Source: an uncultured Bacteroidales bacterium
GTDB taxonomy: Bacteria; Bacteroidota; Bacteroidia; Bacteroidales; Muribaculaceae
Direction: 5' to 3'
Assembly (NCBI GenBank): GCA_902796035.1
Contig: CADBNR010000053.1
Location: 1 to 38,160 of the forward strand
Length of the DNA stretch: 38,160 nt
Shown here: in pieces, positions 2,988 to 35,115 of the stretch
How positions within the stretch are numbered: position 1 is the first letter of the stretch
Layout: the number at the start of each line of letters is the position of its first letter
Notes under the pieces: model-generated
The model's input: the letters and a program-made list of their open reading frames with translations, nothing else
The model's database searches: none
Told to the model about the DNA's origin: nothing
Translations under genes and position numbers: made by a program

Positions 2988-3014
2988 TTCAATGAACTTG
3001 ACTGGGACGCGGGC

Positions 3015-4064
3015 TCAATCGCCCTTCAGGGCGACCGTGGCATCCGGGGTAAGCGCAGCCAGGCGTTCGGCCAGGCGGTTGAGGCGGCTGGCTTTGTCGT
3101 AGCTCATGTCTTCGCTCTTGGTGGATGTGCCGGCTTCCGCTACCAGGAGAAGGCGCCCTTCGGCGCAGGTGTCCATCCCTTGGCCCGCTGGTTTGAACCG
3201 CTCGGTAAATCCATGATCCACTATCCGAATCACCGAGCCACCCTCGGCCAACGCCTGCTTCCTGATTTCATTCTCAACGGGATGTATAAAGGGAGACACC
3301 AGCACCATACCCTGACGCATCGCGCCGATACACCGGGCCTTATAGGAAGCCGTCTCCGCGGCGTTCCACTTGCGCCGCACATGCACCGCAAGCATCGGCT
3401 TGCGCAACAGGAACATATTCCCTACGCAGTCCACCATGTCAGCGTTGATTTTAACCGACAGGTTGCGCCGGAACAAGTCTGGAAACTTCCGCTTTATGAG
3501 CAACCGGCGTGGATTGTCCTCGATATACCGTTCCAATATTTCCAGCTGCCGGTGATCAAAGACAATGCGGTCGTGGATTCCGCAGCCCTTGAACACGCCG
3601 GCTTCCTGCGGAATCAACCCGACATCGCGGCATCTGCGCGTAGTGACAGATTCGATTATGGCCACAAGATTGGTAACAGGTCGGGAAAGCATGCGTTTCA
3701 ACTCCAACAATATGTGGATATGGTCAGGCATTATGACATACTTGCGGATAACGAGGTCATTACTACGCATGGATGCTGTTTTCTGCAGTTCCTCGTCAAA
3801 AATACATCCGATGGCCGACAGTACCACACGCGGCGCATTCTCGCCGTGCCGCACGCCGGGATTGCCAAGGACGTGGCACAGCACCGGAGCCTCCGGATGC
3901 TTCTGGAGTGTAAACATATAGATTCCCGGCATTGTATAGTCATGGAAGGATGCCCGGCGGGTCATCCTGTGTTTTACCGGGCTTTTATAGACAGTGGAAG
4001 GGCCTTTATGACTTTTACTGTCAGAGGAAGGGCTTTTGCTGCCGGAGGAAGGGGAGGAATCCAT
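3015..4064 (-). CDS. REP-associated tyrosine transposase (RAYT) fused to a DprA/SLOG-like domain
   Basis: A 349-residue protein from the ATG at 4064. The frame stays open upstream to a TTG at 4136, and the conserved fold may begin at the ATG at 3965 (MTRRASFHDY). The N-terminal half is a Y1 HUH single-strand nuclease of the RAYT group: MPDHIHILLEL supplies the HxH metal site (His115, His117), and RYIEDNPRR carries the likely nucleophile Tyr180. The C-terminal part, from about residue 215, runs GNMFLLRKP, then GMVLVSPFIHPVENEIRKQ, then GF...KP.G, then CAEGRLLLVAE. This resembles a Rossmann-like DprA/SLOG nucleotide-binding domain. The Ser/Lys-rich stretch at residues 1-33 is low complexity and may be untranslated. 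The gene stands alone with REP-like hairpins behind its 5' end, as expected for a domesticated RAYT. Assignment to the RAYT family is confident; the role of the second domain is unknown. Confidence 0.85.
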   Translation of the reverse strand: MDSSPSSGSKSPSSDSKSHKGPSTVYKSPVKHRMTRRASFHDYTMPGIYMFTLQKHPEAPVLCHVLGNPGVRHGENAPRVVLSAIGCIFDEELQKTASMRSNDLVIRKYVIMPDHIHILLELKRMLSRPVTNLVAIIESVTTRRCRDVGLIPQEAGVFKGCGIHDRIVFDHRQLEILERYIEDNPRRLLIKRKFPDLFRRNLSVKINADMVDCVGNMFLLRKPMLAVHVRRKWNAAETASYKARCIGAMRQGMVLVSPFIHPVENEIRKQALAEGGSVIRIVDHGFTERFKPAGQGMDTCAEGRLLLVAEAGTSTKSEDMSYDKASRLNRLAERLAALTPDATVALKGD

Positions 4065-4143: not shown

Positions 4144-4170
4144 GTAAAAGCCGCGGGCTTTTACCACAGT
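4144..4170 (-). repeat. REP-like hairpin, copy 1 (inverted)
   Basis: Read on the minus strand it is ACTGTG, then a 9-bp stem GTAAAAGCC, loop CGC, then GGCTTTTAC. It matches copy 2 (4327-4353, plus strand) in the leader ACTGTG, the inner stem AAGCC/GGCTT, the outer G-C pair and the loop. The three differing stem positions are all compensated on the other arm. GTGG just before or at the stem resembles the short guide tetranucleotide known beside REPs. A long T-rich run follows it on the minus strand, so it might also terminate transcription entering the RAYT gene. Confidence 0.75.
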
Positions 4171-4171
4171 G

Positions 4172-4322
4172 GCGCCAACGCGGCAGGCAGGCGGCAGGCG
4201 GCAGGCAGGCAGGCAGCAGGCAGCAGCAGGCAGCAAGCGGCAGCAAGCGGCAAGCAGGCGGCAAGCGGCAAGCAGGCGGCAGCAGGCAGCAGGCAGCAGG
4301 CGGCGGCAGGCAGGCAGCAAGC
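4172..4322 (+). repeat. G-rich GGCAGGC/GGCAAGC microsatellite
   Basis: About 150 bases are made almost only of the words GGCAG, GGCAAGC, GCAGCA and GGCGG in irregular order. One strand holds nearly all the G and its complement nearly all the C. All frames are open by composition only, so no protein is called. The tract lies exactly between the two inverted REP-like hairpins. Replication slippage is the likely origin, and length probably varies between strains. Confidence 0.85.
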
Positions 4323-4326
4323 GCGG

Positions 4327-4353
4327 ACTGTGGCTGAAGCCCGCGGCTTCAGC
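4327..4353 (+). repeat. REP-like hairpin, copy 2
   Basis: ACTGTG leader, 9-bp stem GCTGAAGCC, loop CGC, then GGCTTCAGC. It is the inverted partner of the copy at 4144-4170; the stems differ at three pairs with every change compensated. It is followed by GTAGTAG and a smaller hairpin CGGCG-GAG-CGCCG (4361-4373), possibly a degenerate third element. Confidence 0.75.
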
Positions 4354-4417: not shown

Positions 4418-4438
4418 CGCGGGGCGTAAGCCCCGGGG

Positions 4439-4512
4439 TGATCCGGCTGCGACTCGAACGCAGGACCGTCTGCTTAGAAGGCAGATGCTCTATCCAGCTG
4501 AGCTACCGGACC
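4439..4512 (-). tRNA. tRNA-Arg, anticodon TCT
   Basis: A 74-base cloverleaf on the minus strand. The acceptor stem GGTCCGG pairs with CCGGATC (one G-T pair), followed by discriminator A. D arm GCTC...GAGC. The anticodon stem TCTGC/GCAGA encloses loop CTTCTAA, giving anticodon TCT, which reads AGA. The T arm has a TTCGAGT loop. CCA is not encoded. It has its own promoter upstream and terminator downstream. Confidence 0.95.
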
Positions 4513-13901: not shown

Positions 13902-13925
13902 TCCGATCGTGTCCCGATTCATCAG

Positions 13926-13953
13926 GATTAATCGAGAGAAATCGGGATTAATC
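13926..13953. repeat. Two GATTAATC palindromes 20 bases apart
   Basis: GATTAATC occurs at 13926-13933 and 13946-13953, embedded in a near-perfect 20-base tandem repeat (ATTAATCGAGAGAAATCGGG and its copy). It lies between the PurF-like stop codon and a strong terminator. The same octamer is arrayed five times at 35068-35115. Confidence 0.7.
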
Positions 13954-35065: not shown

Positions 35066-35067
35066 GG

Positions 35068-35115
35068 GATTAATCAGGATTAATCAGGATTAATCAGGAT
35101 TAATCAGGATTAATC
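35068..35115. repeat. Five GATTAATC palindromes at exact 10-base spacing
   Basis: GATTAATC starts at 35068, 35078, 35088, 35098 and 35108, separated by AG each time. This is close to one helical turn per unit. It lies between the bidirectional terminator of pgi and the 3' end of the minus-strand META lipoprotein (35134). The octamer is also present twice, 20 bases apart, after the PurF-like gene. Confidence 0.85.

Follow-up and report, generated by a model that had tools for sequence, protein, structure and literature searches.

A probable REP/REPIN family with a cognate RAYT, predicted to be fused to a DprA-like domain, at the same tRNA-side place in three related Bacteroidales

The closest described systems are the REP-RAYT systems of gammaproteobacteria, in which a single HUH/Y1 gene has inverted REPs beside it, the presence of REPs is tied to that of the cognate RAYT, co-located orthologues have REPs that differ yet remain palindromic, and the RAYT is less conserved than its neighbours (PMC2817692, PMC3116915). 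REPs usually exceed 100 copies per genome, and families of tens have also been tabulated (PMC2817692), while Pseudomonas REPINs are rich in doublets (PMC3116915). For the Group 3 TnpAREP of Stenotrophomonas and Marinomonas, the REPs of which have a short perfect stem, with a 3-nt loop in Stenotrophomonas, the CT cleavage step, the guide foot, the loop and the perfect stem are described as important (PMC8266576). On single-stranded REPs, TnpAREP cuts at a CT located on either the 5' or the 3' side of the hairpin; loop reversal or a stem mismatch impairs a perfect-palindrome REP, and the foot co-determines cleavage, the change of GTAG to GTGG having given cleavage at CC in one enzyme (PMC8266576). 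In Bacteroidetes, the HUH/Y1 proteins of TnpAY1 subclasses 2.4 and 2.6 have REPs or atypical hairpins near the gene (Quentin 2018, PMC6006769), and the phylum is among those with CGTC-tagged repeats (PMC3733652). Terminator, mRNA-stabiliser or protein-site roles have been reported for REPs (PMC6006769).

A literature search for Muribaculaceae with "repetitive extragenic palindromic" found no paper, and none of the matches listed for RAYT with Bacteroidales was about RAYTs by title; RAYT, REPIN and Bacteroidetes together gave PMC6006769 and PMC3733652. The initial annotation of the locus had called the REPIN-RAYT arrangement little described in Bacteroidales, which is thus only partly true, the REPs or hairpins and the CGTC-tagged repeats reported in these two papers for Bacteroidetes being on record.

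The window analysed here is a stretch of 38,160 nucleotides from an uncultured Bacteroidales bacterium of the Muribaculaceae (contig CADBNR010000053.1), whose genome (G000) comprises 2.2 Mb in 76 contigs and is about 92% complete. Its locus very likely represents a REP/REPIN family with its cognate RAYT, occupying the same tRNA-side place in three related species (G000, G103 and G153). Compared to the gammaproteobacterial systems (PMC2817692, PMC3116915), it has in common the inverted REPs next to a single HUH/Y1 gene, the tie between REPs and cognate RAYT, and the co-located orthologues with differing, palindromic REPs; the lower conservation of the RAYT is seen towards G103 only. It differs by an ACTGTG foot in place of GT(A/G)G, by 18-23 copies, mostly singlets, by the lack of a downstream REP in G000, by the DprA-like domain and by its Bacteroidales host. 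The short perfect stem also recalls Group 3 TnpAREP REPs (PMC8266576), from which the window system, known from sequence, differs in its 9 bp, its CGC loop, its ACTGTG foot containing CT and its other domain layout. As in subclasses 2.4 and 2.6, the protein is a Bacteroidetes HUH/Y1 protein with REPs near the gene, whereas the motifs differ from those given in PMC6006769 (PDHIH; YIxDNPRR; FKxxGIHDR or LFxxGFNDR replacing WQ). The system therefore departs from known REP-RAYTs by its foot, by its low, lineage-restricted dispersal and, above all, by the DprA-like fusion.

The two facing 27-nt elements that had been annotated, each with an ACTGTG foot, a perfect 9-bp stem and a CGC loop, are present in the window (Table 1). 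The core pattern matched the window twice, compared to a mean of 0.00 in 100 shuffles, and an unfiltered covariance-model scan of the window ranked the two REPs first, with E values of 1.9e-08 and 6.6e-08, all further rows having E >=0.48. The left and right REPs differ at three stem pairs, and all three differences are compensated (3/3), as had been claimed. The reading of GTGG as an element beside the stem did not hold: its fourth G is the first stem base, so that the conserved foot is ACTGTG. The REPIN-RAYT arrangement stood as regards the genome-wide family, the intact HUH/Y residues and the presence of REPs following the orthologous gene, but the pair is located 5' (upstream) of the RAYT gene, between the gene and the tRNA-Arg, and not behind the gene. 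The unfiltered model scan detected no downstream REP of the RAYT gene in G000; a decayed copy at about 3000-3016, suspected by eye, was not listed in that scan.

Table 1. Coordinates of the features of the RAYT locus in the window.
Feature	Position	Strand	Description
RAYT gene	3015-4064	-	349 aa from ATG 4064
C-terminal DprA-like domain	3051-3470	-	residues 199-338, predicted fold
Y1/HUH domain	3480-3932	-	residues 45-195, predicted Y1 fold
Catalytic residue Y180	3525-3527	-	
Catalytic residue H117	3714-3716	-	
Catalytic residue H115	3720-3722	-	
Left REP element	4144-4170	-	pattern, covariance model and perfect 9-bp stem; 4170-4144 reads ACTGTG-GTAAAAGCC-CGC-GGCTTTTAC
Left REP, 3' arm	4144-4152	-	
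Left REP, CGC loop	4153-4155	-	
Left REP, 5' arm	4156-4164	-	
Left REP, foot	4165-4170	-	
Spacer of inverted pair	4171-4326	.	low-complexity repeats of GGCA/GGCAG type (TRF rows within 4182-4323)
Right REP element	4327-4353	+	pattern and covariance model; reads ACTGTG-GCTGAAGCC-CGC-GGCTTCAGC
Right REP, foot	4327-4332	+	
Right REP, 5' arm	4333-4341	+	
Right REP, CGC loop	4342-4344	+	
Right REP, 3' arm	4345-4353	+	
tRNA-Arg(TCT)	4437-4512	-	landmark for the RAYT locus, adjacent in G000, G103 and G153

The spacer between the window elements is taken up by a GGCA-rich low-complexity tract, which puts them 156 nt apart, as against 30 nt in the upstream pair of G103 and 34 nt in the downstream pair of G153, and the repeats are most simply read as an expansion. 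As a single strand, the 210 nt from 4144 to 4353 could also form one long hairpin (z -3.26). A T-rich run follows the left REP in that element's own direction, and this copy could double as a terminator. Elsewhere in the window, GGATTAATC occurs five times in tandem (10-nt unit) at 35067-35115, after a terminator-like hairpin, and twice at 13925-13953, which makes seven exact copies in the window compared to a shuffle mean of 0.27.

The whole-genome copy search proposed in the annotation revealed a repeat family, mostly of singlets, with stems that covary among the copies. The pattern matched G000 18 times at <=3 mismatches, seven of them exactly, and its reversed control gave no match, while covariance model R1, built from 16 G000 copies, gave 18 matches at E <=0.1, including two divergent ones with an ACAGTG foot. 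The elements are thus short palindromes with a conserved foot that are repeated in the genome, as REPs are. Alignment A1 contained 16 of the 18 G000 pattern matches (L017 and L018 omitted), and alignment A4 contained 42 rows from three genomes, namely 16 from G000 and 26 of 33 further matches; A4 omits L173:856, L177, L180, L176:1004, L173:934, L170:1007 and L173:899 (indels, partial, weak or reverse-strand) as well as L090 and L091 of G000. The latter two (C66:9553 and C18:2386) were observed to form a sister REP type with an ACAGTG foot, a GYAAGACCC stem and the same CGC loop.

Across the 42 copies, information is near zero beyond 27 nt, the foot is ACTGTG in 32 and ACCGTG in five, the CGC loop is found in 34, and all nine pairs, wobble included, are formed in 34. 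Two-sided changes were observed at seven of the nine stem pairs (40 distinct rows of the 42 copies), in 69 cells as compared to 18.5 in shuffles and <=16 in slid controls, and 96.9% of the cells are paired. The first stem pair of the distinct rows is G-C in 34, C-G in three, G-T in one and unpaired in two; the fourth base of a GT(A/G)G foot accordingly lies in the stem, being G in most copies and C or A in some.

Copy numbers were 18 in G000, 23 in G103 and four in G153, below the level usual for REPs, and the family is filed as REP-like by its structure and RAYT linkage despite this low copy number. Doublets within 200 nt comprised one inverted and one direct among the 18 model matches of G000 and three inverted among the 23 of G103, most dispersed copies being singlets, in contrast to the doublet-rich REPINs of Pseudomonas (PMC3116915). 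Most G000 copies in A1 are outside long reading frames, with three of the 16 (L002, L011 and L014) inside such frames and L003 overlapping the end of one; in G103, L169 and L177 lie within reading frames. As 27 is a multiple of three, in-gene insertions can keep the frame, and the foot is read as Thr-Val, in the same frame, in all four of L002, L011, L169 and L177. Judged by eye, L002, L014 and L177 lie close behind an apparent signal peptide.

The RAYT gene is found beside the same tRNA and the same tRNA-side neighbours in G000, G103 and G153, and the three proteins have the start ATGGATTCC in common. The other side is unshared, a search of the 8-kb loci of G103 and G153 having failed to find the gene at 2144-2911. 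Towards G103, the RAYT is less conserved (88.3%) than three neighbour proteins (94.5-98.5%), while towards G153 there is no such contrast (80.0% vs 81.5% for the one neighbour found). REPs flank the gene on both sides in G103 and G153 and on the upstream side only in G000: G103 has an inverted pair upstream and one REP downstream, and in G153 the upstream pair is direct and the downstream pair inverted, the spacer of the latter being related to that of G103. The upstream pair of G103 and the downstream pair of G153 thus correspond to REPINs, in which a pair of inverted REPs separated by a short spacer recurs as a unit. An IS200/IS605 element was rejected as a reading of the locus, since the gene is single-copy, its closest full-length paralogue in G000 is 33% identical and the same tRNA site is used in three species. 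At 4012-4053, where the RAYT gene encodes a low-confidence N-terminus, a 21-bp direct repeat contains AAAAGCCC-like pieces that, by eye, resemble half a REP.

The distribution of R1 matches was then compared to that of RAYT homologues, keeping in view that searches over >40 genomes used stricter filters and some weak matches were lost. Among 99 genomes of the family, only G000 was R1-positive, while 35 contained a RAYT protein homologue; among 111 genomes of the genus, R1 matched four (G000, 18; G103, 23; G153, 4; G127, 1), and 88 contained a homologue. G103 and G153 have the two closest RAYT orthologues, 91% and 82% identical, and the one weak match of G127 (E 0.017) lies about 200 bp from a partial homologue of 47%; no R1 match was found in G156, whose homologue has 49% identity. 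In a collection of genomes from 84,980 species, in which G000 itself may be missing, the exact pattern occurred only in Porphyromonadaceae bacterium UBA3318 (G103) and Bacteroidales bacterium SUG1217 (G153), and viral contigs contained no exact match. Two outcomes had been named beforehand as speaking against the REP reading, a lack of further copies and copies in genomes lacking any RAYT gene; further copies do exist, and all four model-positive genomes have a RAYT homologue. In G153 all four matches are at the RAYT gene, and G000 and G103 also have dispersed copies; as these are known in only two related genomes, their dispersal may be one evolutionary event.

These data bear on whether another RAYT of G000 moves the REPs, given that the genome also encodes three two-domain paralogues (C15, C21 and C74) and one C-terminal fragment (C1), the last being 39% identical. 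This is very unlikely, since homologues are widespread in the genus and the REP accompanies only the orthologues of the window gene and, weakly, the G127 homologue, and the 900 nt around the matched stretches of each paralogue (C15, C21 and C74) and of the C1 fragment contain no GTG-footed hairpin. The fragment (G000:C1:16811-17251, in L117) is a 191-aa frame that matches the DprA-like C-terminal part only (profile 183-311), and from its sequence it appears to be a stand-alone or broken copy of that part.

The window RAYT protein has the HUH motif and the catalytic tyrosine within YxxxNP that mark RAYTs, and H115, H117, Y180, N184 and P185 are invariant in 34 of 34 sequences. Structure prediction indicates a two-domain protein, in which a Y1 fold is followed by a DprA-like fold, and among the genomes sampled this combination was seen only within the order. 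In searches against PDB sequences, the single protein had DprA first at E 0.18, which is chance level, the full RAYT profile reached DprA at E 0.0027, and the C-terminal profile alone placed it at E 0.036, behind two de novo TIM barrels; the assignment therefore rests on the predicted fold of residues 199-338. A GN..LL..P pattern is in register with Streptococcus DprA. The signature of DprA is SGxAxGID, and the SGLAKGID of DprA (3uqz) aligns to SPFIHPxE in the RAYT, for which reason the domain is called DprA-like and not DprA. The fold is like that of DprA and DprA-like proteins (ShosA; the PsyrA model of PADLOC), from which the domain differs in being fused behind a Y1 domain and in its weak sequence similarity. 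A literature search found no paper joining RAYT, TnpAREP or Y1 transposase with DprA, co-mentions being incidental by title. The main text of Quentin 2018 has no mention of DprA, and that study reports having discarded a few unexpectedly long proteins (PMC6006769).

The fate of copies in place was followed in 16 orthologous sites of G000 and G103, of which 15 were counted (C52/C73 excluded, L017 included). Of 135 stem pairs, 122 were identical, and the 13 differences comprised 11 that break the pair, one wobble-kept and one two-sided compensated. The latter is the third stem pair of the right window REP, T-A in G000 and G-C in G103, and gene conversion is another possible explanation for it. 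At C63, where G000 has two tandem copies, the decayed L010 was used, and with L007 three breaking differences vanish; at C66, two breaking differences stem from one inserted base; and the comparisons at C55, C63 and C64b include a copy that had already decayed in one species. Counted most conservatively, there are nine differences, namely seven breaking, one neutral and one compensated. The contrast of between-copy and in-place differences gave a Fisher p of 1.4e-07, which is descriptive only because the copies are related. The annotated claim that covariation shows the hairpin itself to be selected is thus borne out between copies and not per site, where differences mostly break pairs. From this small sample of sequences, pairing seems to be selected during amplification and not kept at each locus, which would make it a condition for being copied.

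Quasi-palindrome correction, a mutational process of template switching between arms, could produce covariation without selection for pairing. The orthologous copies at C41/C75 have loops that are exact reverse complements of each other (CGC vs GCG), as strand switching would leave them, which suggests that arm switching does occur; common arm correction, however, predicts compensated changes in place, and with only one compensated difference in 13 and 11 that break pairs, it is unlikely to be the source of the covariation. The same counts make it improbable that the hairpins serve the host as regulatory structures (terminators, mRNA stabilisers or protein sites), kept per locus with an incidental RAYT. 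Such roles are reported for REPs (PMC6006769), most copies are outside long frames, and the T-rich run suits a terminator; nevertheless, most stem changes seen between orthologous sites lack compensation, REP presence follows the orthologous RAYT, some copies are inside long frames in both G000 and G103, and the 6-nt foot is conserved outside the stem. A terminator-only reading was rejected on the linkage to the orthologous RAYT, the uncompensated in-place changes and the conserved foot.

Selection for pairing when REPs are copied is the reading retained, and the sites also revealed gains and losses. At L169, a copy is present in G103 and the site is empty in G000; L178 and L016 look decayed in G000 and G103, respectively; L004 is absent or decayed in G103, the L091 site has other sequence in G103, and only G000 has additional tandem copies at C63 and C65. 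Nine G153 stretches corresponding to sites dispersed in G000 or G103 gave no model match, two of which (L205 and L206) are on tRNA-bearing anchors and are perhaps not orthologous. At L013 and L177, the G153 flanks align closely around the absent element; at L014 other sequence is in place, and the spacers of L008 and L015 can scarcely be aligned and contain no REP.

The repeat family was probably spread through the genome by the RAYT protein. Its HUH/Y1 domain would bind the REP hairpin on single-stranded DNA and cleave through Y180 at the CT (CY) step by the GTG foot; GTG is directly preceded by an invariant C and then T or C, so that the ACTGTG foot would suit a cleavage site. The RAYT would place copies of REPs or REPINs at new sites, its DprA-like domain may hold or hand over the cut single-stranded DNA, and good pairing would be selected when copies amplify, fixed copies mostly decaying by one-sided changes. 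As a more speculative possibility, there may be a Bacteroidales RAYT class in which a REP-cutting HUH domain is fused to a DprA-like one, with REP dispersal via a single-stranded-DNA mediator (RecA-type or competence-like hand-over) and not a bare Y1 nuclease, with ACTGTG as cleavage step and guide, with pairing selected only during amplification and with the RAYT-linked pair as master copy.

It is possible, although we would not call it probable, that spread belongs to the past, the RAYT now being kept for another single-stranded-DNA task, for example via its DprA-like domain, and the REPs being relics. Several copies are decayed, perfect GTG-footed hairpins are missing from the vicinity of 70 of the 79 other homologue loci, and only L169 is clearly filled in one species, the compared sites being common to both and hence containing few young copies. 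Against this, foot, loop and stem are intact in most copies, the difference in the right REP next to the RAYT is a compensated one, and G000 has the two extra tandem copies. Dispersal by the RAYT, for its part, bears on two wider questions, the means of REP spread and the reason for which hosts retain RAYTs: different stages can be compared among the related genomes, with REPs at the gene only or dispersed, then decaying in place, so that selection during copying can be separated from selection at the site, and the fused DprA-like domain hints at a domesticated-transposase role besides moving REPs.

Hairpins were also sought in the flanks of other RAYT homologues, in scans of 54, 82 and 79 loci that are subsets of all homologues; flank boundaries were those of the matched stretches and not gene ends, with 11 loci and the G000 paralogues rechecked. 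In 54 loci, the window locus included and self-complementary feet counted twice, GTG-footed hairpins occurred 18 times in nine loci, compared to 0-3 in 20 shuffles. Without the three orthologues, a perfect GTG-footed hairpin was near the match in nine of 79 loci (shuffle mean 0.2, maximum 2), a small lead of GTG over the foot trimers TGT, TGG and AGA with seven loci each. L061 and L109 have GTG-footed hairpins with stems of their own on both gene sides, as confirmed from the gene ends. The second, downstream hairpin of L058 is within a 3' extension of the open frame, those of L143 and L093 are inside an open frame, and L050 and L093 have one hairpin in common. The flanking hairpins of G079 and G017 were expected to be dispersed and had no copies away from the gene, as in G153. 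The wider association of hairpins with RAYTs is present but patchy.

At L068 (G001), the same GTAGTG-footed hairpin occurs inside the RAYT homologue and just past its stop (1861-1879 and 2549-2567, gene orientation), the in-gene one recalling the in-gene REPs of subclass 2.4 (PMC6006769). Downstream of a truncated RAYT homologue in G127 (L180, 1484-1813), five GTAG-footed palindromes (GTAGGGACRTG-N6-CAYGTC) occur in both orientations, and one more is present at L144:888; these palindromes represent another REP-like type of the genus, one with a classical foot.
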